From positions 20,693-84,692 of IMG/VR virus record IMGVR_UViG_3300045283_000116: a stretch of 64,000 nt of DNA, one strand, 5' to 3'. Below, one piece after another: positions 39,533 through 58,739 of the stretch (position 1 is its first letter; each line of letters opens with the position of its first letter). The stretch comes from a virus. Below the pieces are notes generated by a model. That model was not told the origin of the DNA. It saw only the letters and a program-made list of their open reading frames with translations, and made no database searches. A program made the translations under genes and the position numbers.

Positions 39533-39773
39533 CCTGTTCCGCGCGCACGACGACGCCGTGAGCCGAGCTCGCGAGTTCGACGGCGACTGGATCGGGCGAC
39601 TCAAGGCTTTCGGTCTGGACCCGGCCGAGGTCGAGGAGGTCATCGTGGCTCGCTGGGAGGACTTCAAGACGGTGCGGCAGGAGGGCGTCATCACGGAGGA
39701 CTTCGTGCTGTTCGCCGCGGGCTTTGCCGAGGGCCTCGTTGCTGGCGTGGCGTTCGGTGAACGTGAACACTGA
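39522..39773 (+). CDS. Small hypothetical helical protein
   Basis: 83 residues from GTG, overlapping both neighbours. It is acidic and helical, with a Gly-rich hydrophobic end (FAAGFAEGLVAGVAFG) that could be a membrane-associated helix. No family was recognised. Confidence 0.55.
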   Translation: MEGDLFRAHDDAVSRAREFDGDWIGRLKAFGLDPAEVEEVIVARWEDFKTVRQEGVITEDFVLFAAGFAEGLVAGVAFGEREH

Positions 39774-40431
39774 ACTGTTCGCCTACGAGGCGTGGCCTCC
39801 CCGTTCGATCTGGGGCGAGCACGCGGCGCAGGGTCAGAACCCGTACGACACCGTCGACTTCCACGTCGACCTGGGCTGCGGAACCTTGCCGAAGGGTCGG
39901 ATTGGAGTCGACCGCTACCGCGCGCCGGGCGTCAACGTCCTCGCCGACCTGGATGCGGTCCTGACGTACGCGGTTCCAGTGGTGCCTGGTGGCGAGGCGG
40001 GACCGGGGGCCGTGCCTGGCCCCGGACTCCCGTTCGCGGATAGCTCGATCCGGTCGATCATCTCCCACCACGCGCTCGAACACATCGGGGACGGGTTCCT
40101 CACGCTCATGGAGGAAATCCATCGGGTGCTGGTACCGGGCGGTTTGCTGCGGGTCATCACGCCCGCGTTCCCCTCCTGGGCAGCGGTCGGTGACCCCGAC
40201 CACCGTCGCTACTTCATGGCCGATCCGTCGACGGGCGCGTCGACGTGGGACGCTTTCTTCGTCGACGGCAACGGCCACTCGTGGCTTTCGGAGTTCTCCG
40301 TCCCCTACATCGGCACGGCGAAGTTCATGCGACTCGAGTTGGACGTGACCCCGACGCCCCCCCTGGAACTGCAATGGACGGCCGAGGACAGACGAGAGAT
40401 GCGTATCGCTATGGCGGCCTGGAAGCCCTGA
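39757..40431 (+). CDS. SAM-dependent methyltransferase (class I)
   Basis: 224 residues from GTG at 39757 (39763 is an alternative). VDLGCGTLPKGRIGVD is the SAM-binding loop, LPFADSSIRSIISHHALEH gives the post-motif region, and VLVPGGLLRVITP follows. The subtype resembles methyltransferases near polysaccharide genes. It lies just before the glycosyltransferase cluster and may methylate a sugar added by those enzymes. Confidence 0.8.
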   Translation: MNVNTELFAYEAWPPRSIWGEHAAQGQNPYDTVDFHVDLGCGTLPKGRIGVDRYRAPGVNVLADLDAVLTYAVPVVPGGEAGPGAVPGPGLPFADSSIRSIISHHALEHIGDGFLTLMEEIHRVLVPGGLLRVITPAFPSWAAVGDPDHRRYFMADPSTGASTWDAFFVDGNGHSWLSEFSVPYIGTAKFMRLELDVTPTPPLELQWTAEDRREMRIAMAAWKP

Positions 40432-40515
40432 GCCATCACTTCGATCCGTCCTACGCTTGGCCGGTCGGTTCTCGCGTCTGCGTTTGCGGTCGCCATGAAG
40501 ATCATTCGATCCACC

Positions 40516-40521
40516 TAAAAT
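40516..40521 (+). promoter_or_regulatory. TAAAAT -10 box, possibly leaderless
   Basis: TAAAAT ends six bases before the ATG at 40528, with no ribosome site between. The 96-base gap 40432-40527 contains nothing else recognisable. This may start the glycosyltransferase operon as a leaderless mRNA. Confidence 0.45.
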
Positions 40522-40527
40522 CACTGC

Positions 40528-40953
40528 ATGGCACCACTACCGACACGCCGAATCACAGCCACGTCCTGCGAGGTCATCACGACCGGGCTGGGCAAGAACA
40601 ACAGGGAGTACACGATCTACGAGATCGCGGCCCGCGGTGAGGACGGGCTCGAGATCACCGAGAACCTGCGGTCGTTCGAGAAACTGCCGTTGGACGTACT
40701 CATCGAGGTCGAGGTCGAGTCGTTCAGCAGCGACCGCCACGGGCACTCGTACACGCTCAAGCTGCCGCGCAACTCGGAACACAAGGCCGAGAATCAGTCG
40801 GGCTCCGGGCTGTTGGAGCTCATCCGCACCCAGCTCACCGAGCTCCGCACCGAGCTCGAGCTCCTGAAGCCCCAGGTCCGCCAACTCAGGACTCAAGTCG
40901 CAGAGTTACGGGGCGAAGAAGCGCCCCGAGACGAGACCGAGGTCATCCTGTGA
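40528..40953 (+). CDS. OB-like/coiled-coil protein of unknown function
   Basis: 141 residues. The first 90 residues are beta-rich (TSCEVITTGLGKNNREYTIYEIAA), compatible with a small OB fold. The rest is a coiled coil of heptads (LLELIRTQLTELRTELELL). Similar small phage proteins can bind ssDNA, but this is a guess. Confidence 0.55.
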   Translation: MAPLPTRRITATSCEVITTGLGKNNREYTIYEIAARGEDGLEITENLRSFEKLPLDVLIEVEVESFSSDRHGHSYTLKLPRNSEHKAENQSGSGLLELIRTQLTELRTELELLKPQVRQLRTQVAELRGEEAPRDETEVIL

Positions 40954-41654
40954 GCCACGCGACGTGCTGCGTGCTCTCCTACAACCGACCGGAGTTCCTG
41001 TCTCGCAGCGTCCTGTCGATGATCCAGAACGCCGACGAGCCTTTCGAGTTGATCGTCCACGACGACGGCAGCAAGGACGCGGTCGACATGCGCGTCGTGC
41101 TCGACTGGTTGCAGTACGTCGTGGGGGCGACCGTCATCCGCAACGCTCCCGGCCACAATCAGGGGCAGGGTGTGGCGCTGAACCGCATGTTCGGGATGGC
41201 GACCGGCGACCCGATCTACAAGCTCGACCACGACCTGACGTACAAGCCGGGGTGGCTGAGCCGATCGAAGCGGCTGATCCTCGGCAACCCGAAGATCGGC
41301 CTCCTGGGCCTGTTCCACTACTACTACGAGCCGTGCGACTCCCGTCGCACGTTGATCGAGGATCACGAGGAGTGGAGCTCACGCACCCACATCCTCGGTT
41401 CGGCGTTCGGGGTTCGCCGCCACTGCTGGGACTGGCTCGGCCCGTTCGATGAGCACCGCGCCGACTTCGGTGAGGACTGGTGGTTCCAGAAGCGGGTCAC
41501 GGCAAGCCGCGACTACTGTTGCGCGTTGCCGAGGAGGGATCTCGTCGAGAACTTCGGCTTCGGGATCGGGCCGTCGACCGTGAACGTTGCGGCCAACACG
41601 CTCCAGGAGATTTACACCCAGCCGTACCTCATCGTTCCGCCTGGAGTCCCATGA
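40950..41654 (+). CDS. Glycosyltransferase family 2-like (GT-A)
   Basis: 234 residues, GTG overlap. VLSYNRPEFLSRSVLSM and IVHDDGSKDA are the nucleotide-sugar site of GT-A enzymes; KLDHDLTYKPGW carries the D-x-D metal motif. FDEHRADFGEDWWF supplies the usual ED catalytic pair. It is the first of four consecutive glycosyltransferases. Confidence 0.85.
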   Translation: MSHATCCVLSYNRPEFLSRSVLSMIQNADEPFELIVHDDGSKDAVDMRVVLDWLQYVVGATVIRNAPGHNQGQGVALNRMFGMATGDPIYKLDHDLTYKPGWLSRSKRLILGNPKIGLLGLFHYYYEPCDSRRTLIEDHEEWSSRTHILGSAFGVRRHCWDWLGPFDEHRADFGEDWWFQKRVTASRDYCCALPRRDLVENFGFGIGPSTVNVAANTLQEIYTQPYLIVPPGVP

Positions 41655-42541
41655 TCGGCATCGTCATCCCCGTGGGGCCGGGCCGCGAGAAGAACCTGAC
41701 CCAATGCCTGTTGGCGATCCGCAGCCTCGGTCGCGACCTGCCGCCCGTCGTGCTCGTCGGTGACGGCGTGGGTCCCGACGATCTGTGGGCCACGGTGCCA
41801 TTCGGACTGCCGGAGGTCGGCGTGATCGAGCTACCCAAGCATGTCCCCGGCATGGAGCAGCCGCGCAATCAGGGCGTTCGCTATCTCGCTGGGCGCTGGC
41901 CCGAGGTCACGTACGTGTGGTTCGTGGATTCCGACGTGGTGCTGGAGCCGTGGGCGCTGGACGCCATGCGCGATGCGATCGCCGACGGCAATGCCGGGAC
42001 GGAACCTCGGATTCTCGTCGGACCCTACGACTGGCTGCCGGAGGGTTGGCGGCCCGAGAGCGGGGTGGGCTGGTCGAGTAGAGGCGGCCTCCGCAACGAC
42101 CCCCGCTGGCCCGCCTTCGATACCAACGACCCGAGTCACGTGTTCAAGGGCGACCTCATGGCTGGGCTGGCCTGCTTCTCCGGCAACCTGGTGTGGCCGA
42201 TCGAGGAGTTCCAGAGGACCGGCGGATTCTGGTCGGAGCTTCACCACGGCCGCTGCGAGGACGGGGAGCTGGGCTTGCGGGCCGTGGCGATGGGCGTCGG
42301 AATCTCGATGGTGCGCGAGGCGCGCGGCTACCACCTGTGGCACCCGGTCGACACGCAGTTGGCCCTCGCGCGTAACCTGCGCGACGTGCCCATGCTCAAC
42401 ACGCGCCACCCCTGGGCCGAGGGTGCGGGCGTGGTGATGGTGGATCGGGACGGCAAGGCGTTCGACGTGCGCTGTTCGGGGTGCGGGAGGCTGGTCCCGA
42501 CGATCGGCTGGTGGGAGCACGCCGCCGCCTGTCATGAGTGA
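41651..42541 (+). CDS. Glycosyltransferase family 2-like with C-terminal zinc knuckle
   Basis: 296 residues. IVIPVGPGREKNLTQCLL starts the GT-A fold, WFVDSDVVLEP holds D-x-D, and HHGRCEDGELGLRA is the catalytic acidic stretch. The last 35 residues add CSGCGRLVPTIGWWEHAAAC, a C2HC zinc knuckle not usual for this family. Start overlaps the previous stop. Confidence 0.82.
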   Translation: MIGIVIPVGPGREKNLTQCLLAIRSLGRDLPPVVLVGDGVGPDDLWATVPFGLPEVGVIELPKHVPGMEQPRNQGVRYLAGRWPEVTYVWFVDSDVVLEPWALDAMRDAIADGNAGTEPRILVGPYDWLPEGWRPESGVGWSSRGGLRNDPRWPAFDTNDPSHVFKGDLMAGLACFSGNLVWPIEEFQRTGGFWSELHHGRCEDGELGLRAVAMGVGISMVREARGYHLWHPVDTQLALARNLRDVPMLNTRHPWAEGAGVVMVDRDGKAFDVRCSGCGRLVPTIGWWEHAAACHE

Positions 42542-43325
42542 AATCCTGGTTGTAGTCCCGACCTACCTGACCGAGCCCGCGGACCTCGAGGTCACGCTGA
42601 AGATGCTCGAGTCCCTACGGGCCACGGAACCCGAAGTCGGAGTCGTGGTCGTCGACGACGGATCGCCCGCCGGGCAGCTCGTCGACGAGATCGAAGCCGC
42701 CAAGTCACGACTGGAGTTTGCCCTTATCCGCCGCCCCGTGAACGAGGGATTCGCCCGTACCGTGAACGTTGGACTGGAGATGGCACGCAACTCGGACCGC
42801 GACGCGATCCTGGTCAACGCCGACATCGAGTTCATCGACCAGAATTGGGCGCAGAAGATGCAGCAATGCCAGCGCTTCGACGGCCAAGGTCCGGCTGCCG
42901 TCGTCGGCGGACTGCTGCTCTACCCCACCGGCCTGATCCAGCACGCCGGGATCTTCTTCAGCCTCCTGCACCGATGTTTCGACCACCGTTACAAGTACGC
43001 GCCGCTCGATCTCCCCGAGGCGCTGGTGGCCGAGTCGTGCCCGGTCACCGGAGCGTTGCAGTTCATCCGCAACGACTGCCTCCAGATCGTCGGCCTCTAC
43101 GACGAGGAGTTCCGGCTCGGCTGGGAGGATGTGGACTATTGCTTGCGCGTGTTCATGGCCGGGGGCGAGTGCGTGTACGACCCGACCGTCCGCGCATTCC
43201 ACTACGAGTCGATGTTCCGCAGCAAGCCGTCCCCGAAGATCCAAGATTGGCAGGCTCGCTCATGGCTGTACCTAGTCCAGAAGTACAAGACCACGAGCTT
43301 CGCCCTGTGGGTGCCCGGCCTGTAA
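42534..43325 (+). CDS. Glycosyltransferase family 2 (rhamnosyltransferase-like)
   Basis: 263 residues, start 8 bases inside the previous gene. VVVPTYLTEPADLE and VVVDDGSPAG form the donor site, VNADIEFID the D-x-D motif, and GWEDVDYCLRVFMAG the conserved ED motif. This is the closest to textbook GT2 enzymes of the cluster. Acceptor unknown. Confidence 0.88.
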   Translation: MSEILVVVPTYLTEPADLEVTLKMLESLRATEPEVGVVVVDDGSPAGQLVDEIEAAKSRLEFALIRRPVNEGFARTVNVGLEMARNSDRDAILVNADIEFIDQNWAQKMQQCQRFDGQGPAAVVGGLLLYPTGLIQHAGIFFSLLHRCFDHRYKYAPLDLPEALVAESCPVTGALQFIRNDCLQIVGLYDEEFRLGWEDVDYCLRVFMAGGECVYDPTVRAFHYESMFRSKPSPKIQDWQARSWLYLVQKYKTTSFALWVPGL

Positions 43326-43333
43326 GGAAGGCC

Positions 43334-43347
43334 GCGACTCCAGTCGC
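43334..43347. promoter_or_regulatory. Perfect dispersed-motif copy in a spacer
   Basis: GCGACTCCAGTCGC: an exact GACTCCAGTC (43336-43345) flanked symmetrically by GC. It lies in the 38-base gap between two glycosyltransferase genes, 16 bases before the next start, a good position for transcription control. Confidence 0.6.
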
Positions 43348-43363
43348 ACTGACGGACGACGTG

Positions 43364-44392
43364 ATGACGGATCAGGTGGCCTTCGTCGGCCTGGGTGCGA
43401 ACGCCGTCTGCTGGTATCGGTGCGTCCTACCGGCAATGGCGATGGCGTCGGACTGGCTGGGCGTCGTCGGCCATCCACCGGAGATGCGCTTCGTCACTGG
43501 CCTCGTCAAGGGGGCCACGGTGCGGCCCGAGTGGGACGACTACAAGCTGGTCGTCGTGCAGCAACCGCGGGGTCGGGGCTGGGCGCGCTGGATTCAGGGC
43601 GCTCGCGAGCGCGGGATCAAGGTGGTCTACGAGATCGACGACTACGTGCACGGCATCGCCCGGATGCAAGACCACGACTACCGTCAGCACTTCGACAAGA
43701 AGGGGCTCGCCGAGATGGAGCTCTGCATGGCGCTGTCCGACGCCATGATCTGCTCGACGGAGTACGTCGCTCGTCGCTACCGCAAGTACAACAAGCACGT
43801 CTACGTCTGCGAGAACGGGATCGACATGTCCCGCTACCAGCTAACGCGGCCCACGCGCAGGACCGTGAACGTCGGCTGGGCCGGGGCGACGGGCCATCAG
43901 CGCTCAGTGCTGGGCTGGCTGGAGGCGGTGGGGCACGTCATGGAGCGCCACGATGACGTGTGCTTCATCAGCATCGGGCAGGCGTTCGCGGACTACTTCG
44001 TGCCGCAGTTCCCGAAGCGGGCGCTCAGCGTGCCGTTCACGCTCGTGGATATCTACCCGGCTGCGATGACCATGTTCGATATCGCCCTGGCTCCGGCCGG
44101 GCCTGGCAATTTCTTCCGGGGAAAGAGCGATTTGCGTTGGCTGGAGGCGGGGGCGCTGGGCATCCCGACCATCGGGTCGCCGATCGTGTACCCCCGCATC
44201 GAGCACGGCATCACCGGATTCAAGGCGGAGTCTCCGGGCGATGTCGAGGGGCTCCTCGAGCTGCTGGTGACCGACCGGGAACTTGCGACTACGGTCGGGG
44301 AGAACGCTCGCCGCTACGTCGTCGAGGAGCGCACCATCGAGGCGATGTCGGCGTCCTGGATCGAGGCGTTCCGGGACATCCTCGACACGTAA
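43364..44392 (+). CDS. Glycosyltransferase family 4-like (GT-B)
   Basis: 342 residues. An N-terminal domain (VAFVGLGANAVCWYRCV) is followed by VYEIDDYVHGI, VCENGIDMSRY and VGWAGATGHQRSV. The C-terminal donor domain ends SDLRWLEAGALGIPTIGSP with the family E. Start ATG chosen over the GTG one codon before. No clear ribosome site; the operator-like motif is directly upstream. Confidence 0.85.
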   Translation: MTDQVAFVGLGANAVCWYRCVLPAMAMASDWLGVVGHPPEMRFVTGLVKGATVRPEWDDYKLVVVQQPRGRGWARWIQGARERGIKVVYEIDDYVHGIARMQDHDYRQHFDKKGLAEMELCMALSDAMICSTEYVARRYRKYNKHVYVCENGIDMSRYQLTRPTRRTVNVGWAGATGHQRSVLGWLEAVGHVMERHDDVCFISIGQAFADYFVPQFPKRALSVPFTLVDIYPAAMTMFDIALAPAGPGNFFRGKSDLRWLEAGALGIPTIGSPIVYPRIEHGITGFKAESPGDVEGLLELLVTDRELATTVGENARRYVVEERTIEAMSASWIEAFRDILDT

Positions 44393-49250: not shown

Positions 49251-50363
49251 TCAGCGCGTGAACTCAAAAACGCGCTTGGTGAGCTTGAGCGGCAGGTGCT
49301 CGGGACCTTTTACGTAGGGCGCGATCCACACCTGTCGGTGTTCTTTGATCGAGGGGTACCATTGCCGCCTCCAATGCCCGCGCACGAGCCACTTGTGCTT
49401 CCACTCGGGCGACTCGCCCTCCTCGTCGTAGTGACGTTCGCCCTCGCGCCGTAGCGTGATGACGGTCACGTCCTCGGCCGCTTTGACACCGTGGCGCTTG
49501 GCATCGCGCCGGTACGCTCGAGGTAGCCGCTGCTTGGCGTGCATTACCTGCGACCCGAGTCGCCACATTGACTGGACGAGCGCGACCTGAGCCTTCGCGC
49601 GGATTCGCGCCTCGCCCTCGAAGTCGGGCCACGGGTTCGTGCCCCACGTCCACTGGAACGTGTGCACACACGTGAGCTCGGCGAGCGGGCCGAACGCTGT
49701 GCGCGTGTCGAGTCCGCGGCCGTTCGGCAGCTTCATGTCGTCGTCGGCATGGACGTAGAACGTGACCCAGAAGCAGCCCTTGTCCGGGTCCTCGCCGTGG
49801 ATCGGAATCCACGAGATCGCGCGCACGTAGACGACCCACTCGCCGTCGTGCGTCGGGTGGTCGTCGAGTGCGATCGGCCGCGGGAGCCACGCGAAGCCGC
49901 AGAACGTGAACGGGTCGGTCGGCAGCACCGGCTCGGGATCGAAGCTCTCGCGGGCGTAGTCGATCATGTCCGTCACGTCCGCCGAGATGTAGACCGGGTC
50001 GGCCTGCTCGAGCGTGGACTTTTGGATGTAGTACAGGTAGCCCTCCGTGACCTGCGAGATGCCGTGCGACTCGGCGATCAGGCGTATGCCCTCGCGCGTG
50101 CCAAGCGTCTCGATATCCGGGTCAATCGGCGGCGCGTCTTTCGGCCACTGGCCGAGGCCGATCAGGCGATTGAGCGACTCGCGTCCGGTCTCCTCGCCGA
50201 GTTGGCTCGGCGGGTCCTCGCCCTCGACGCTCGCGACGATGTGCCGGAGGTTCATGTCCTCCTCGAACTTGAGCGTGTAGTACATCCCGCGCGGGGTGTT
50301 GAGGAAGCGAAGCTGCTGGACCTGCTGGTGCATCGCATCTTCGTATCGGTGAACTCCAGTCAC
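49251..50363 (-). CDS. Large uncharacterised phage protein
   Basis: 370 residues; its GTG start overlaps the RuvB-like stop. The C-terminal part (VRGHWRRQWYPSIKEHRQVW, then IAPYVKGPEHLPL) is a pattern I associate with unknown proteins of actinobacterial phages and plasmids. The N-terminal part is acidic with several Trp. No catalytic motif was recognised. The codons at its start carry a one-mismatch dispersed motif (50352). Confidence 0.65.
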   Translation of the reverse strand: MTGVHRYEDAMHQQVQQLRFLNTPRGMYYTLKFEEDMNLRHIVASVEGEDPPSQLGEETGRESLNRLIGLGQWPKDAPPIDPDIETLGTREGIRLIAESHGISQVTEGYLYYIQKSTLEQADPVYISADVTDMIDYARESFDPEPVLPTDPFTFCGFAWLPRPIALDDHPTHDGEWVVYVRAISWIPIHGEDPDKGCFWVTFYVHADDDMKLPNGRGLDTRTAFGPLAELTCVHTFQWTWGTNPWPDFEGEARIRAKAQVALVQSMWRLGSQVMHAKQRLPRAYRRDAKRHGVKAAEDVTVITLRREGERHYDEEGESPEWKHKWLVRGHWRRQWYPSIKEHRQVWIAPYVKGPEHLPLKLTKRVFEFTR

Positions 50364-51439
50364 GGCTTCGCTCCTTCCATCTCGGCGACGCGGGCGATCC
50401 CGGCGTCGGTCAGGACCCGGCCGCCGCTCGCGACTTGCACGTAGCCGAGTTCGATGAGGTACGGCTCGACTCGCAGCGCGATTGCCTTCGAGTCCCTCGA
50501 TTTACCAATAGCCGTTGCGATGGCGTTGACGCTGGCCTGATAGCGCGTCTCGCCGCGCACGGTTCGCTTGCATCGCAGGAACATGAACTTGAGCATCGCC
50601 TGCATGTCCGGCGTCAGGCCGTCGCGCGCGATGCCGCCCACGTCGAGCACCTTCTGCGCCTCGGCCTTGCCGATCGTGTCCGTGGTCGCCCACAGCGCCG
50701 CGTTCTTGATGAGGTTGTTCATCTCGCGCGGTACGCCCCGACAGGCATGGGCAAACATCCGCGCGGCGTTGCGCCGTATCTGGAGGTTCAGCGTGTAGGC
50801 GTTGCGTGCCGCCATGAGGATCAAGTCGTCCTCGTCGTACGCGACCAGACGCGGCTTGAGCGCGAAGCGATTGACGAACGCGTCGGGCAACATGCCCTCG
50901 TCGGTGGTGGTGCCGATGACCGTGATCGCCGGGAAAGGCAGGACTCCAGTCTCGGTCGGCAGCACGCGGTCCTCCATCACCGCATACAGGACTTCGGGCT
51001 GAGTGGCCGCGGAACGTCCGCGCCGGTCGCCGATGCCCTGCTGGTGAATCTCCTCGATCTTGAGCACGTCGCCGTCCTTCATCGTCGTGCGCAAGGCGAG
51101 CAGCGTGTCGAAGCTGATCGGCGCTTCCACGTCGTATACCTCGACGCCGAGTTCGTTGGCGATGACGTGACTGAAGGTGGACTTTCCGGTGCCGCTCGCA
51201 GCCACGAGCAGCATGTGATCCATCGGCTTGCCGGTCGCCTTCGCGCGGTCGATGGCCGCGCGGGCTAGGGCCTTGGCCTGGCCCTGCCCGATGACGCCCG
51301 CCAGAGTTCGGGGGCGCATCGGGTTCTTGGTTCGGTCGTCGGTCGGGGTCGGGGCGAGCGCGTTGGCCGCGTGCTCGCCCTGCTTCTCGCGGGCGAAGGC
51401 GAGCAACGGTGGTTCTGCGGATCTGAAATCCCTCGTCAT
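50360..51439 (-). CDS. RuvB-like AAA+ branch-migration ATPase
   Basis: 359 residues. After a 40-residue extension, MRPRTLAGVIGQ matches the RuvB start, ASGTGKS (about 81-87) is Walker A, and LKIEEIHQ replaces the usual FIDEIH Walker B (first Asp to Glu). GTTTDEGMLPDAFVNRF is the sensor/arginine-finger region. The C-terminal winged helix is divergent. No RuvA or RuvC is visible; it may drive host RuvA or act in repair. Confidence 0.82.
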   Translation of the reverse strand: MTRDFRSAEPPLLAFAREKQGEHAANALAPTPTDDRTKNPMRPRTLAGVIGQGQAKALARAAIDRAKATGKPMDHMLLVAASGTGKSTFSHVIANELGVEVYDVEAPISFDTLLALRTTMKDGDVLKIEEIHQQGIGDRRGRSAATQPEVLYAVMEDRVLPTETGVLPFPAITVIGTTTDEGMLPDAFVNRFALKPRLVAYDEDDLILMAARNAYTLNLQIRRNAARMFAHACRGVPREMNNLIKNAALWATTDTIGKAEAQKVLDVGGIARDGLTPDMQAMLKFMFLRCKRTVRGETRYQASVNAIATAIGKSRDSKAIALRVEPYLIELGYVQVASGGRVLTDAGIARVAEMEGAKP

Positions 51440-51493: not shown

Positions 51494-52633
51494 TCACGGT
51501 GCCTGCGTGGCGGGAACCGGCCCGCTCCGCAGGCCCTTCGCCACCGCAGCCGCCCACGCCTCGTTGAGGTTGTCCTGCATGTCGCCGCCCTTCATCCGCA
51601 CGCGATCGGCGGCGTCGCCGTAGCCGAGTTCGAGCGAGTCCAGCGCGCCGAGCAGCTTGGCGTCGCCCATCGCGCGGTAGTTCCTACGCCAGCCTTTAGT
51701 CGCAGGCTTGGCCCTCGGAGGACCGGGCGAGCTCGCAGGGATTCGCGGCGCGTTGACCGGCACCACTCCGCCCGTCAGGCGGGGGTTGACGGCCGGACCC
51801 GCCATCAAGTCGTCGCGCCTGCGCAGGAACCGCGGGTTGCGCGGCTTGCCGCTCGCGGGGTGCAGGCCGTCGTGCTGAATCTCGATGACCGTGCCGACCC
51901 AATCCTGCGGGTTCGTCCAGATGTCCTCGCGCTGCTGGTCCGTGAAGCCGGTGCCGACCTTCGCGTACGCGCCGGAGCCTTCGATGGAGATCATCAGCGC
52001 GCCGAGTTGCGTTCCGTTGCGCCCGCTGCCGACCTCCATGTCGTAGACCTCGGCCTCGCACGTCTGGACGGGCTTGCACTTGATCCAGCTCGTTGAGCGT
52101 CCGGGTGAGTAGAGCGAGTCGACGCGCTTGAACATCGAGCCTTCGTAACCGGCCATGACCGCGGCCTGGTGCGCACGAGTCGTCGCCGGGCGGGCCGTCG
52201 AAAGCGAGACTTCAGTCCCGACGTTCAGGCCGGACTCGAGCATCGCGCGGCGCTCCGTCCACGGCAGGGTGCGTACGTCCACGCCGTCGCAGCGCAGGAT
52301 GTCGAAGACCACGTAGTGCAGGTCGTGCACGTGGCTGTGGCTCGTCATCTGCGACTGGACCGAACCCCAATCGTCGCCGTCGGGGTTCGCAACGATCTCG
52401 CCGTCGACGCACGTGTCGCGCGGGAGCAGGCCGACAACCCACTCGGCTTCCTTCAACCTCCCGGTGTAGTCGGAGCCGTTGCGGCCGCCGTACGTGTGCA
52501 CGCTGCCGTTCTCGTCGTTCCAGAGCAGTCCGCGCCAGCCGTCGAGCTTGTACTCGTGAATCCACTCGTCGGGGTTGTGGATCGGGTCGCCCGCCTGAGC
52601 GAGCATCGGTGACGCCCACGTGGGAGCAGCCAT
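51494..52633 (-). CDS. lig: ATP-dependent DNA ligase (LigD-ligase-like)
   Basis: 379 residues. Motif I KLDGWRG with adenylated Lys29, then DGEIV (motif III area), EGSMFKR (motif IV) and WIKCKP (motif V). An OB domain follows with FTDQQREDIW and IEIQHDGLHPAS. The last 80 residues are an extra helical tail. It lies in one operon with Ku and a zinc ribbon, suggesting end joining. Confidence 0.92.
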   Translation of the reverse strand: MAAPTWASPMLAQAGDPIHNPDEWIHEYKLDGWRGLLWNDENGSVHTYGGRNGSDYTGRLKEAEWVVGLLPRDTCVDGEIVANPDGDDWGSVQSQMTSHSHVHDLHYVVFDILRCDGVDVRTLPWTERRAMLESGLNVGTEVSLSTARPATTRAHQAAVMAGYEGSMFKRVDSLYSPGRSTSWIKCKPVQTCEAEVYDMEVGSGRNGTQLGALMISIEGSGAYAKVGTGFTDQQREDIWTNPQDWVGTVIEIQHDGLHPASGKPRNPRFLRRRDDLMAGPAVNPRLTGGVVPVNAPRIPASSPGPPRAKPATKGWRRNYRAMGDAKLLGALDSLELGYGDAADRVRMKGGDMQDNLNEAWAAAVAKGLRSGPVPATQAP

Positions 52634-52634
52634 G

Positions 52635-52931
52635 TCAGTCCTCCTCTACGAGTTCGGGCTGGCCCGCGACGAATCGCGCTTCCCAGCCGTCCTCGGTGTC
52701 GTCGTAGTCGCAGTTGCGGCAGTGCAGGCCGATCGTGTCGGACGTGTCCCAGAACATCTCGGTGCCGTCGTGGAAGTCGAAGACGAGTTCGGCTTTGCCC
52801 TCCGTGTTCGCGACCACGCCGATCGTCACGCCCAGGTGGCCGATGACCTGTTCGACGGACTTGAGTCCCTCGCTTTCGTGGCACTCCGGGCACACGAGGA
52901 TCTTCGGTTCGTTCGCGTCGGTGGCGCTCAT
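52635..52931 (-). CDS. Zinc-ribbon protein between Ku and ligase
   Basis: 98 residues, four-base overlap with Ku and a 1-base gap to the ligase. CPECHE near residue 14 and CRNCDYD near 73 form one zinc site split by a beta domain. Position in the middle of the Ku-ligase operon makes it a candidate third component of the repair system. Confidence 0.7.
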   Translation of the reverse strand: MSATDANEPKILVCPECHESEGLKSVEQVIGHLGVTIGVVANTEGKAELVFDFHDGTEMFWDTSDTIGLHCRNCDYDDTEDGWEARFVAGQPELVEED

Positions 52932-53764
52932 GACTTCGCCGCCTTACGCGCGGCGGGCTTCTTCGCGGCGGGCTTCGCCTTGTCCAGCGCGGCGCTCATC
53001 GCAGCCATGAGGTCAGGCACCGCGGCCGCCGCGCTCGGCGCGGAAGTCGCGACGGGAGTCTGGCCGGAGAGCACCTGCTGCACGAGTGCGTCACGCCGTT
53101 GTGCGTACGTGTCGACGAACGCGGTGTGCGAGAAGTCGTCCATGCTCAGACCGGCCGACTGCGCGAACGTCTCGAACGCCTGAGCGGCCTGCTCGTTCTC
53201 CTCAAACTTGTGCTCGCGCACGTCGTTGAGCTCGTTCGTGTACGGGAGCGCGTGGCCGGTGAGCCCGTGCTCGTCCGCCGTGATCGCCATCAGCGCCGGG
53301 CGGGTACCGGCGCGAGCCGAGAACTCCGTGATGACCGCGCGCCCGCTGGCGAGTAGGCCGTTCCACAGGATGTTCGCGGGCTGCTCAGAGCCGGGAACCT
53401 TGTCGTCGGGCACGATGCGGTACTTCGCGCTGGTGAGCGCGGACGGGATGCTGTCCTGCAACGGGAGTCCGAGGATCTCCATCGTGTCGGTTCGGTCCGC
53501 GTCGATGAGCGCCGCGTGCTGCTCGGGCGTGACCGGGCGCACGTCGTTCTTGCCGATGGCGATGCCCTTGTGCATCGCGGCCGTCTCGAGAATCGTGCCG
53601 TCGATCGCGCACGTGTTGTGCTGCTTGATCGGTTCGTCGTGGCACGGGCAGAGGTTCTTGAACCCGCTCGCGCTCGCGCTGGACGAGACGATCGAGTAGC
53701 CCTTCAAGTGGATCGGGAAGCCCGCGAAGTTGATCGCGGATGCCCATGCGGAACGTGCAGCCAT
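52928..53764 (-). CDS. ku: Ku-like DNA-end-binding protein
   Basis: 278 residues. SAWASAINFAGFPIHLKGYS matches the start of bacterial Ku (W-x-G-x-I-x-F-G-L...P-V-K-L). The ring region follows: a NLCPCHDEPIKQ segment, VTPEQHAALI, EILGLPLQDSIPS, and LLASGRAVITEFSARAG. A basic KPAAKKPAARKAAKS tail resembles the Lys-rich C-termini of bacterial Ku. It would thread DNA ends and recruit the ligase. Confidence 0.85.
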   Translation of the reverse strand: MAARSAWASAINFAGFPIHLKGYSIVSSSASASGFKNLCPCHDEPIKQHNTCAIDGTILETAAMHKGIAIGKNDVRPVTPEQHAALIDADRTDTMEILGLPLQDSIPSALTSAKYRIVPDDKVPGSEQPANILWNGLLASGRAVITEFSARAGTRPALMAITADEHGLTGHALPYTNELNDVREHKFEENEQAAQAFETFAQSAGLSMDDFSHTAFVDTYAQRRDALVQQVLSGQTPVATSAPSAAAAVPDLMAAMSAALDKAKPAAKKPAARKAAKS

Positions 53765-54544: not shown

Positions 54545-54815
54545 CCTTGATTCGTTGCAGCACGCGCTCGGGCGGCTCGCCGTAGTTGGCTTCGAGCGCC
54601 GCGTAGAGCGTGGCGTTCGGGTTGTTGAAGTAGTGCAGGCCCGCGTTCACGAGCAAGTTGAGCGCGTCGACCATGCCCTCGTCGGGCAGGTCGCATTCGA
54701 CGATGATCTCGTCGGCTGCGCGCGTGAATGCCGCGCGCAGCCGGTCGGTGATGGGCGGGAGGTATTCGGTCATGCCGGTCTCGCCGTTGTAGAAGGTGTC
54801 GCGATCGGTGCTCAT
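54528..54815 (-). CDS. Hypothetical helical protein
   Basis: 95 residues, ATGA overlap with the upstream gene. Helical, with repeated Ala/Leu/Asp (LRAAFTRAADEIIVE, ALNLLVNAGLHYF). Function unknown; part of the MoxR-VWA-Ku operon. Confidence 0.6.
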   Translation of the reverse strand: MSTDRDTFYNGETGMTEYLPPITDRLRAAFTRAADEIIVECDLPDEGMVDALNLLVNAGLHYFNNPNATLYAALEANYGEPPERVLQRIKDARHG

Positions 54816-55780
54816 GCGTCCGCGCCCATATCGCCGAGCTTCTCGAGCGCCTCGTCCAACTGCTCGAGGTTCTGGTCGATCTCGTCGCGCGAAATCCCGA
54901 CGAGAGTCTCGAACTGAGCAACCGCACCGGCCAGCTTGCGCCGTTCCAGGTGCAGGTTCGTGAGCAGGTCCGAGCGCACCTTGCCGCCGTTCGCGTTGCG
55001 CAGACGGTTCGTGGCCTTCTCCAGTAGCTCGCGGCTCGTCTCCTGCGCGTTCAGCGCGAAGTGCTTGGCGACCATCTTCTCCGCCTCCTCATCGCGCACG
55101 AGCGGGATGATGTGGAAGTCCGCGCGCTCGCCGTAAAGCTCCGCGAGCGCCGCCTGCATCCCGAGCAGGATCGGTTCGGTCGGCTCGTTCGTGCGCCCGA
55201 CGATGTGCGTGTCGGGCACGAAGTACAGACCGCCAGCCTTGCGTCGCACGTTCTGCGCGCCCAGGTCTTGCAGCATCTCGCGGATCGCGTTGCGGATCTT
55301 CGGACCCGGAACCGTCTTCTGGTTCTTGGCGAAGTGCGCGCGGATGGTGTCCTCGAGCCCGCGAAGCGAGGCGTAATCGCTGTCGAGATCCTTCACGGTG
55401 ATGTCGTCCTGCGCCTTGTCGTACACGAGCGTCATCGACTTCTCGTGTTCGATGAGGCGCGCCTGTTCGTCGCGCACCTTGCGCGTGATCTGGTAGACGA
55501 CCTCGGTCGCGCTCTCCATCACGCGATCGACCGCGACCTCGACGCCCGCGCCGCCGCGCCGCGTCTCCACGGAACGGCAGGCCGACATGAAGATTTCCGC
55601 GCCCTTGCGCGTCTTGGGCAGCACGTTCACGTCGAGTCCGTGGATGCCCCACACGCGCACGAGCTTCGTGGCGCTCTGCGGATCGTCCGGGAGCGTGTAC
55701 GTCGCGAGCCGCCCGAGCAGCTTCATGTCCTTCGCCGCCTTCGCGGATACAGCCTTCGCGCCGCTGAGGTTCGCAGCCAT
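54812..55780 (-). CDS. Conserved actinophage protein of unknown function
   Basis: 322 residues. VWGIHGLDVNVLPKTRKG and FMSACRSVETRRGG form a conserved-looking block I associate, from memory and unverified, with DUF6744 of actinophages. The second half is helical coiled coil. It follows the VWA gene by 13 bases, so it may be a client or partner of the MoxR-VWA machine. Confidence 0.65.
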   Translation of the reverse strand: MAANLSGAKAVSAKAAKDMKLLGRLATYTLPDDPQSATKLVRVWGIHGLDVNVLPKTRKGAEIFMSACRSVETRRGGAGVEVAVDRVMESATEVVYQITRKVRDEQARLIEHEKSMTLVYDKAQDDITVKDLDSDYASLRGLEDTIRAHFAKNQKTVPGPKIRNAIREMLQDLGAQNVRRKAGGLYFVPDTHIVGRTNEPTEPILLGMQAALAELYGERADFHIIPLVRDEEAEKMVAKHFALNAQETSRELLEKATNRLRNANGGKVRSDLLTNLHLERRKLAGAVAQFETLVGISRDEIDQNLEQLDEALEKLGDMGADA

Positions 55781-55793
55781 GTCTAGCCTCCAG

Positions 55794-57428
55794 TTAGGTG
55801 ATGTTCTGCGCGAGCTTCGTGCTCGCATCGTTTGACCCGGCGAGGTCTTGCACGTCGACGACGTACTCGCACATCTGGCCGAGATAGGCGTTGTTCGGGC
55901 ACAGGATCGAGATCCCGTGGATGCGCACGCCGAGTTCGTTCAGCGCGTGCTTGATCGTCTGGTCGGCCTCGCGGAAGTAGTCCTGACCGTCCCCGATGAG
56001 GATGATGTCCGCGGTCTTGAACGCGGGCACGTCGCGCATGATCCGCAACGCTGCGGTCATGCCCGTTCGCGTGCTCGTCCCGCCGCCGAAGAAGTGGCTC
56101 GCGTAGTCGAGCACGACGTTCGGGTCCGCGGGCACGCCCTTCGGGAAGAACCATTCCTTGCACTGGTTCTCGCTACCGAACTCGATGCCCGCGAACTCGC
56201 GCTTCTCGCGCTGCGCGATCGTGAGCAGGCACAGTGCGAGCGAGGACGCCCAGACGAACGGTTCGCCGCCCATCGAGCCCGAGCCGTCCGTCACGCAGAT
56301 GATCGGCCCGCGCCCGGCGGGCATCTTGCCGCTCATGTCGTATTGCAGGACCGCGTTGTCCGCGAAGTCCCTCATGAACGTGGTCTTGATGAGCCGGTTG
56401 TCCGAGAACGCCCGCGCGAGTTCGTGCGGGAGCATCCGACTGAAGTCTCGGCCCGTGGTGATGCCCACGGGCTCGATCGGGACGTTCTTCGTTCGAGCCT
56501 CGCGCTTGAAGCGCATGTCGCGATACAGCCGCCCGAGCATGGCCGCGATCTTCTTGAGGTCACGGTTCTCGCTCCACTTCTCCGCGAGCGCGATCTGCTG
56601 GTCGGGCGTGAGGTTGTGCGACTCGCCGCCGCCGATGCCCGGAATCGAGTGGAGAGCTTCGACTGCCTCCGCGCCCGCCTGAGCGGCGTCGCGCGCGGCT
56701 GCGCTGGCGTCGGCGACCACGCTGCTCGTTCGATGCGCGTGGTCGAGTTCGGCAAGAAGTTCGCTCGCGGTCTGGCGACGCTTGGCGACGCCCTTGATCT
56801 CGCGCTTGGTCTGGTCGGTGACCTGACCCGCGTGGTCGATCTCGGCGCGCGCGCGGTCGCGAAGGTTGTCCATCATGTCCTGCGCGTCGCGCATCTCCTG
56901 TTCGACCTGCTCGGCCTCGTCGGCGCGCGCGACGTGCTCGGCCAGCCGCGTCTGTGCGGACTCCTCGAGCGACTTGCGCATCGCCATCGCCCCAAACAGG
57001 GACTCAAGTTCGTTGTTGCGCGTGTACGGGCGCGACTCCTGAAAGCCCTCGCTGATGAGCGTCTCCGCGAGAATCTCACGGTTGAGCCGGTGGCTCAGGC
57101 GCACGTCGTCCGCGCGGCGAAGCTCGGGTTCGTCGAGCGAGAAGTTCGCACGCGCCACGTCACGCAGAAGCTCGGGGAACGTCGACCAGTGATGGTCGTG
57201 CTGCGTCTTGCGCTCGTTGCCGTGCTCGTCGGTCTCCGTGCGCTCGTAGTGCACGATCGGCGGGTTGCGCGTGGCAGCCTTGAACCGTTCGGTTCGCGCG
57301 GCCGACTCCGCGATGATGTTGTCACGCAGCGGGTCCGCGGTCAGGCCCGACTTGCTGAGTTCCTGCGGCTTGCGCGCCGCGATCAGGGAACGAACCCTGT
57401 TCGCGGCGCGCGTGAAGTCCATGCCCAT
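55794..57428 (-). CDS. VWA-domain protein (CobT/ViaA-like)
   Basis: 544 residues. A long helical, Arg/Glu-rich N-terminal 360 residues precedes a von Willebrand A domain. The MIDAS motif DGSGSM is at about 379, the second loop is GGGTSTRTG, and ILIGDGQDYF is the third metal loop. It is paired with the MoxR ATPase 10 bases upstream, as in RavA-ViaA and CobS-CobT. Together they probably form a chaperone or remodelling machine; the client is unknown. Confidence 0.85.
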   Translation of the reverse strand: MGMDFTRAANRVRSLIAARKPQELSKSGLTADPLRDNIIAESAARTERFKAATRNPPIVHYERTETDEHGNERKTQHDHHWSTFPELLRDVARANFSLDEPELRRADDVRLSHRLNREILAETLISEGFQESRPYTRNNELESLFGAMAMRKSLEESAQTRLAEHVARADEAEQVEQEMRDAQDMMDNLRDRARAEIDHAGQVTDQTKREIKGVAKRRQTASELLAELDHAHRTSSVVADASAAARDAAQAGAEAVEALHSIPGIGGGESHNLTPDQQIALAEKWSENRDLKKIAAMLGRLYRDMRFKREARTKNVPIEPVGITTGRDFSRMLPHELARAFSDNRLIKTTFMRDFADNAVLQYDMSGKMPAGRGPIICVTDGSGSMGGEPFVWASSLALCLLTIAQREKREFAGIEFGSENQCKEWFFPKGVPADPNVVLDYASHFFGGGTSTRTGMTAALRIMRDVPAFKTADIILIGDGQDYFREADQTIKHALNELGVRIHGISILCPNNAYLGQMCEYVVDVQDLAGSNDASTKLAQNIT

Positions 57429-57437
57429 GCGCGCCTC

Positions 57438-58739
57438 CTACGGCTTGTACTTGGTGGGAAGGTCGTTGTCGTAGAACCACTTGCGCACCGACAGCAGTTC
57501 GTTGGACAGTTCGCGCAACGCAGCCGCGTCGCGCTTCTCTGAGTCCGCCTCCGCGAGGATCGCGTCGACGCGCTTGTTCACTTCCTCGATCATGCGCGAG
57601 GCCGCGATCGCCTTCGACAGAACCTCGGAATCGAGATCCTCGTTCGGGGGCGTGCCCTCGATCGTCGGGCGCACTTCCTCGACGGACGCGAACGCCTTGG
57701 CCGCCTCTTGGCGCTTGGCCGTGGCCTCGCGCTCGAAGCGCCCGTGGTACTTGAGCACGAGCTTGTGCGCGAGCGGAATGTCGTCCTGGTCGCGCCACAT
57801 GCCGTGTTCGCAGATGGCGAGGTCTTCGGCGATCGTGTGGTCGCGCCCGCTCATCCATGCGTTCGCACGGCACACGAGCACGAGCTCGACCCAGCGCCGC
57901 GGCGAAACGATCAGGCCCTCGGCCTTGCTCTCGCTGCGCAGGGATGCGGCCGCGTCGAGAAACTCCGGCGACAGTTGGACGTTCGCCACAGCGTCGCGCG
58001 CGGCGACGTACTGGTCGAGCGTGACGGTCTCGCGTGGCGCGGCCGAGCCGGTGCGCACCATCGAACCGTTGTCGATCAGTTCGCCGTTGACGTTCGTCCC
58101 GGCCAGCCGCCGCGCGTGATCGCGCCGCAGCAGTTCCTTGAAACTGTCGTCGCTGCGAATGTCCTCGATCTTGAGCATCACGGTCACGCGATCGCTGATC
58201 GCCTGCGCCTGCGCGTTCTCCGGGTCAAACCACGTGTTCGAGCCGGACACGACGAATTGGATCGGCGTTTTCTTCATGCCGCCGTTGTGCTCGGCCATGC
58301 GCTCCTGCGTGTTCATGAACGACAGGCACGCATCGAGCAGCGGCCCGTTCGCACGCGGAAGCTCGTCGAGGAACACGATGTGCGCGTTCGGCGCGTAATG
58401 CGCGACGTTGCGCTCGAAGTCTCCGGTCTTGGCGAAGTTCGCCATGTCGTACGGGCCGATGACCGCATCCGCGCCGAGCGTGCCGTGCAGGATCTTGCCG
58501 AAGTAGCGCACGTCCGTGATCGACTTCGCGAACTCGGTGAGCGCGAGGGACTTCGCCACGCCCGACTCCCCGATCATGTGCGCGTTGACGCCCGCGAGCG
58601 CGGCGCGTAGGAGCACGCGCATCTCGAGGTCGCGCTCGACCAAGACTTCGGTCGTGATGTAGGTGATGATGCGATCGAAGTCTGCGGGTTCGACCGCGAC
58701 TTGCGCGGGGGCGACGGCCCCGGTGCGCGTGGCAGGCAT
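57438..58739 (-). CDS. MoxR/RavA-family AAA+ ATPase
   Basis: 433 residues. Walker A GESGVAKS (57-64) has the Ala typical of MoxR; Walker B IVFLDELPRAN is at 121-131; VSGSNTWFDPENAQ is sensor I. The C-terminal lid is followed by a helical extension. It is the first gene after a promoter of the right-arm family and heads the operon VWA, unknown, Ku, ligase, RuvB-like. Confidence 0.88.
   Translation of the reverse strand: MPATRTGAVAPAQVAVEPADFDRIITYITTEVLVERDLEMRVLLRAALAGVNAHMIGESGVAKSLALTEFAKSITDVRYFGKILHGTLGADAVIGPYDMANFAKTGDFERNVAHYAPNAHIVFLDELPRANGPLLDACLSFMNTQERMAEHNGGMKKTPIQFVVSGSNTWFDPENAQAQAISDRVTVMLKIEDIRSDDSFKELLRRDHARRLAGTNVNGELIDNGSMVRTGSAAPRETVTLDQYVAARDAVANVQLSPEFLDAAASLRSESKAEGLIVSPRRWVELVLVCRANAWMSGRDHTIAEDLAICEHGMWRDQDDIPLAHKLVLKYHGRFEREATAKRQEAAKAFASVEEVRPTIEGTPPNEDLDSEVLSKAIAASRMIEEVNKRVDAILAEADSEKRDAAALRELSNELLSVRKWFYDNDLPTKYKP

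Follow-up and report, generated by a model that had tools for sequence, protein, structure and literature searches.

A tailed phage genome that carries both a Ku gene and an ATP-dependent DNA ligase gene

Can a phage that encodes Ku also supply the ligase needed to seal the ends? Omega and Corndog, two phages that express Ku, reportedly make use of the LigD of their hosts (PMC7719229), as is also stated in the preliminary description of the DNA studied here, and a whole-record search of Dylan and Baka (one from cluster J, one from cluster O) found Ku but no ligase of the family described below. The question is raised by a stretch of 64,000 nucleotides, hereafter the window, contained in a virus record of 84,692 bp (84.7 kb). 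Profile searches of this record gave matches to terminase, major head, tape measure, DnaB and integrase, and the record is therefore a tailed phage genome. It has its own Ku and its own ATP-dependent ligase, with matches to PF02735 and PF01068, in agreement with what had been proposed for it.

A Ku gene and a ligase gene in one transcription unit

The genes lie in a minus-strand transcription unit which comprises, in this order, Ku (278 aa, 52928..53764), a 98-aa protein with two CxxC pairs (52635..52931), the ligase (379 aa, 51494..52633), a RuvB-like AAA+ ATPase (50360..51439; PF05496, 4.5e-22) and a protein matching phrog_15934 (49251..50363), whose start shares 4 nt with the RuvB-like gene. 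The preliminary description had placed the first three in an overlapping operon. All three open reading frames are present in a single unit. Those of Ku and the CxxC protein have 4 nt in common, whereas a 1-nt gap, and no overlap, lies between the CxxC protein and the ligase.

The Pfam family PF02735 matches the window Ku with E=1e-14 and 55.3 bits, above the cutoff of 25, and phrog_4873 (Ku-like DNA end binding) matches it as well. The NCBIfam model of bacterial Ku (TIGR02772, Ku_bact) aligns over nearly its full length (E=3e-21), at 76 bits and thus below the trusted cutoff of 150 bits, so that, judged by its sequence, the protein is a divergent relative of bacterial Ku and not a TIGR02772 equivalog. 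A leave-one-out Ku HMM (E=2e-28) supports the presence of the Ku core. We modelled the protein as a monomer with AlphaFold2 (pLDDT 71), and the best PDB matches of the model were the Ku proteins of Mycobacterium tuberculosis (Mtb), Bacillus subtilis and human, with probability 1.00 and with Ku proteins in all the top places. The TM-scores against bacterial Ku are modest (0.38-0.46), which indicates that the model does not reproduce the orientation of the arm. The predicted structure of the monomer thus retrieves the Ku fold, and sequence and model together point to a genuine, very divergent bacterial-type Ku. Its divergence is also apparent in a Ku tree, where it forms a long branch with no firm placement, and in a tblastn search of the phage collection, which gave no match. 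Its best bacterial matches are from Actinomycetota. In a search for the host, the phage terminase matched none of 397 + 299 genomes sampled from that phylum and class.

The product of the ligase gene matches PF01068 (E=8.6e-22), PF14743 (OB_2, E=1e-10) and phrog_114 (E=5e-52), and also the NHEJ ligase model NHEJ_ligase_lig (TIGR02779; E=4e-34), with 118 bits against a trusted cutoff of 227.75. Since both Ku and the ligase fall below NCBI trusted cutoffs while matching their families, we take them for divergent members and not for doubtful ones. The ligase has a nucleotidyltransferase and OB core and no N-terminal DNA-binding domain. Its adenylation motif KxDGxR (K29, D31, G32, R34) and the downstream catalytic residues E79, E164, K169, K185 and K187 are invariant in the phage ligases compared, and all fold matches of its model in the PDB are ligases, the LIG domain of Mtb LigD being among the closest solved structures. 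Sequence and model thus identify it as an ATP-dependent DNA ligase whose catalytic motifs are intact. In the AlphaFold2 model a disordered linker is followed by a C-terminal three-helix domain (residues about 320-366, 51536..51676 on the minus strand, pLDDT about 75-91), and the C-terminal sequence, NYRAMGDAKLLGALDSLELGYG, is matched solely by one other ligase, that of the phage G010, among the phage ligases compared. The protein shares its core with phrog_114 proteins, Lig E and phage replication ligases and differs from them in adjoining Ku and in the extra helical domain.

The bacterial Ku-LigD systems of M. tuberculosis and B. subtilis likewise combine Ku with an ATP-dependent ligase; unlike bacterial LigD, the window ligase stands alone, with neither a polymerase nor a phosphoesterase domain. 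Profiles of the LigD polymerase (TIGR02778) and phosphoesterase (PF13298), each of which was positive in one control genome, found neither domain in the full record or in eight further phages. End processing in these nine phages would consequently need another source, and the pair is best described as seal-only, suited to ends that are ready to ligate. The locus had been described as a near-complete end-joining system, which holds for the presence of Ku and ligase and not for the processing activities that LigD-type domains provide.

Among known phages, Ku has been reported in mycobacteriophages of clusters J and O and in Streptomyces phage BillNye (PMC11936186), and a published survey in which about 3,000 actinobacteriophages were screened for components of NHEJ gave no matches (PMC7719229). 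The cluster J and O phages are, like the window phage, large tailed phages with a bacterial-type Ku of their own. Their Ku proteins (Omega gp206 for cluster J, Corndog gp87 for cluster O) share with the window Ku the core and the minimal C-terminal motif, at about 21% identity; the window phage differs from Dylan and Baka in having its own ligase. Our search of the open-licence literature brought up no account of a phage that combines Ku with a ligase of its own. PADLOC gave weak generic AAA matches only and none for Ku or ligase, and a reading of the locus as a defence system was discarded.

Conservation of the Ku C-terminus

We aligned ten Ku proteins, the members being 16-26% identical to the window Ku, and found that, of four columns without any variation, three are located within one eight-residue stretch near the C-terminus. 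This stretch, in which D251, A254 and A258 of the window Ku are invariant, is the best conserved part of the alignment and outlasts the core. It belongs to the minimal C-terminal motif VPDLMAAMSAAL (residues 249-260, 52985..53020 on the minus strand). In M. tuberculosis, whose Ku is among the closest solved structures to the window Ku, the minimal C-terminus reads D247 V S D250 L251 ... S258 (PMC9638933). D251 of the window Ku aligns with D250, and the Asp and Leu of the motif are kept; two residues deviate, A standing for S258 and M for L255. In the Ku of one further phage, G035, most of the motif is gone.

The function of this region has been studied in M. tuberculosis. Ku with only the minimal C-terminus doubled ligation by LigD, point mutants including D250A did not stimulate it, and it was this truncated Ku that best stimulated the isolated LIG domain in sealing nicks (PMC9638933). 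Because the best-kept stretch of the alignment matches this ligation-stimulating C-terminus, the comparison supports, by inference, ligase stimulation as the conserved task of these Ku proteins. Bacterial Ku also has a basic extended C-terminus (PMC9638933), the counterpart of which would be the Lys/Ala-rich tail at residues 263-278 (52931..52978, minus strand), a basic segment modelled by AlphaFold2 with low confidence.

Recurrence of the pair in related phages

Used directly as queries against viral contigs, neither the window Ku nor the window ligase brought up any relatives. The terminase does have relatives there, and the lineage was reached through it. We searched 30 records of the terminase family, that of the window included, with Ku and ligase profiles. 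Ku is present in seven (G000, which is the window record, G019, G020, G021, G022, G024 and G030), and every one of the seven also has a ligase; the Ku of G022 is very divergent (2e-28 with the leave-one-out HMM and 1e-4 with Pfam, just under the cutoff). An eighth ligase-bearing record, G010, has no full Ku and an open reading frame for a Ku C-terminal tail only. Neither gene was found in the other 22 records, many of which are fragments, and there was no case of Ku without ligase among the 30. G035 (two contigs, L327/L329, with identical fetched stretches), obtained from a scan with the ligase profile, has both genes too, so that the pair recurs in other phages; at the other viral ligase loci from that scan no Ku lay within the fetched flanks (up to 6 kb).

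If the records were independent, the probability that all seven Ku genes would fall among the eight ligase-bearers of 30 would be about 4e-6 by our own arithmetic. They are not independent, and independent pairs on the terminase tree are concordant in five of five cases (5 to 0, sign test p=0.0625), so that the co-occurrence, once corrected for phylogeny, falls short of p<0.05. The distribution of the pair on this tree is patchy and needs 6-7 gains or losses.

The distance between the two genes varies. In G030 and G035 they are direct neighbours; in the window they are separated by one small gene, in G019 by two small genes (0.45 kb), and in G020 and G024 by about 19 kb. The order is Ku-ligase-MoxR, two small genes and then VWA in G030, Ku-ligase-MoxR-VWA-DUF6744-like in G035, and Ku-tail, ligase, MoxR and VWA, with small genes between, in G010. 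In the window the corresponding lineage-core genes, on the minus strand, encode a DUF6744 protein (54812..55780; PF20529, 1.6e-17), a VWA-domain protein (55794..57428; phrog_24053, 4.8e-36; PF13519, weak) and a MoxR-type AAA+ ATPase (57438..58739; PF20030, 3e-20). These three are conserved in relatives with and without Ku, and the RuvB-like gene, another of the lineage core, which shares the transcription unit of Ku and ligase, is found also in the Ku-less G008, G009, G011 and G016. We therefore rejected all four as end-joining parts; they belong to the backbone of the lineage, and Ku and ligase recur next to them. Jumbo phages are known to have MoxR-vWA pairs (PMC7824862). The same pairing of MoxR AAA+ and VWA is seen here, beyond Ku and ligase in G030 and G035 and upstream of them in the window; its presence in Ku-less relatives sets it outside the end-joining module. 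Elsewhere in the window, on the plus strand (39757-44392), there is a cassette of a methyltransferase and several glycosyltransferases, found partly in the relatives G008 and G009.

The Ku-tail reading frame of G010 (56 aa, L193:4308-4478, plus strand) reads ASVPDLMTKLTNAIAAK...KPARKKRAPAKK. It lies upstream of the phage ligase, at a distance of about half a kilobase, with its start within the end of a GIY-YIG-like reading frame; its profile E-value ranged from 2e-5 to 0.02 in the different searches, and no remnant of a Ku core was found near it. We tentatively propose, holding it as somewhat less than an even prospect, that a host-independent minimal NHEJ has been gained and lost as a unit in this lineage of large soil phages, and that at least one member dropped the Ku ring and kept the ligase-stimulating tail near the ligase as a separate small protein.

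Possible roles of Ku and ligase

We consider it reasonably probable that Ku and the ligase form a two-protein, seal-only end-joining module serving accessory genome maintenance, with the rejoining of breaks likelier than an obligatory circularisation. Ku dimers would load on double-stranded DNA ends and hold them, and the C-terminal arm of Ku (the DLMAxLxAS motif and the basic tail) would promote sealing by the stand-alone ATP-dependent ligase of the phage. Such a module would join only blunt or compatible ends with a 5'-phosphate and a 3'-OH, for which restriction cuts or terminase-made ends are candidate substrates, and its favoured use would be to rejoin breaks such as host-inflicted cuts. 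Physical cooperation of the two proteins, like this use, is something we infer. Against the module speak the 19 kb or so between the genes in G020 and G024, the near loss of the tail motif in the G035 Ku, and the isolated LIG domain of Mtb LigD, which is poor at joining double-strand ends and was not assayable with Ku on long dsDNA (PMC9638933). If the proposal is right, viruses can carry self-contained end joining, in contrast to the phage Ku proteins examined to date, which rely on host LigD, and large soil phages may rejoin DNA ends with no ligase from the host. The pair would also offer a compact two-protein NHEJ for study, in which the undoing of restriction or CRISPR cuts by phages, or circularisation, becomes testable.

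Circularisation of the genome after injection, as in Omega and Corndog, with the phage ligase replacing host LigD, is a possible use that we regard as less likely. The genomes of cluster J and O phages end in 4-base 3' overhangs, and Ku and NHEJ are thought to recircularise their genomes (PMC3706429; PMC4351075); a seal-only ligase would suit ends made by terminase. On the other hand, both genes are absent from the sister phages G008, G009 and G011, whose terminases are 55-59% identical to that of the window. Among them G009 (58%) is apparently complete, with a 127-bp end repeat as expected of a circular assembly, which makes an essential role in circularisation less likely. The contigs of relatives end at differing map positions, so that no fixed ends are visible. 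No terminal repeats were found in the window record. The Ku-less sisters and the differing contig starts, taken together, argue against obligatory circularisation and favour accessory break repair. As a separate observation, the contig ends of G009, G020 and G022 carry repeats of 123-127 bp, in size like an assembler k-mer, which suggests that they are circular assemblies, complete genomes of about 85, 148 and 163 kb.

It is doubtful that Ku recruits host LigD, the ligase of the phage being no more than a common replication ligase in the same operon. Known phage Ku proteins do work with host LigD (PMC7719229), and in M. tuberculosis the polymerase domain of LigD, a domain that the window phage lacks, is the likely primary Ku-binding site (PMC9638933). 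Replication ligases are common in phages and many phages have them without Ku, so that the window ligase may serve replication. Yet in the terminase lineage Ku was not found without ligase and most relatives have neither, most of the phage ligases fetched are far from any Ku, and the core of Mtb Ku also binds the LIG domain (PMC9638933). More improbable, in our view, is that Ku only protects the ends of linear phage DNA from host exonucleases with no part in joining: Ku-like end binders can be protective, as Mu Gam is (PMC1378119), but protection predicts neither linkage to a ligase nor a retained ligation-stimulating tail.

The 98-aa protein had been put forward as a zinc protein and a possible new component of the system. 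Its two CxxC pairs (CPEC and CRNC) are the grounds for reading it as a putative zinc ribbon, and Pfam and NCBIfam profile searches gave no family above cutoff. Relatives were found neither with phmmer, run on every ORF of 16 phages and on the viral ligase loci, nor with tblastn over 50,697 phage records; thus the Ku/ligase pair of the proposed triplet recurs and the protein between them does not. That it is an essential third subunit is very improbable since, in spite of its position between the Ku and ligase genes and the 4-nt overlap of its start with the end of Ku, no homologue was found in the 15 other phages of the lineage or in any other phage with Ku and ligase, and Ku directly adjoins the ligase without it in G030 and G035. 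It is probably a co-transcribed passenger and not an end-joining component.

Ku genes were also observed in other settings. In the IMG/VR contigs L278 (5995-6882) and L279 (6007-6912), which share one isolate identifier, small genes surround a Ku with a long Lys-rich tail, and the part of each contig that was fetched contains no ligase. The 5.5-kb 'Bacteriophage sp.' record MT838252.1 from human faeces, which may be bacterial DNA, encodes a Ku 47% identical to that of M. tuberculosis.
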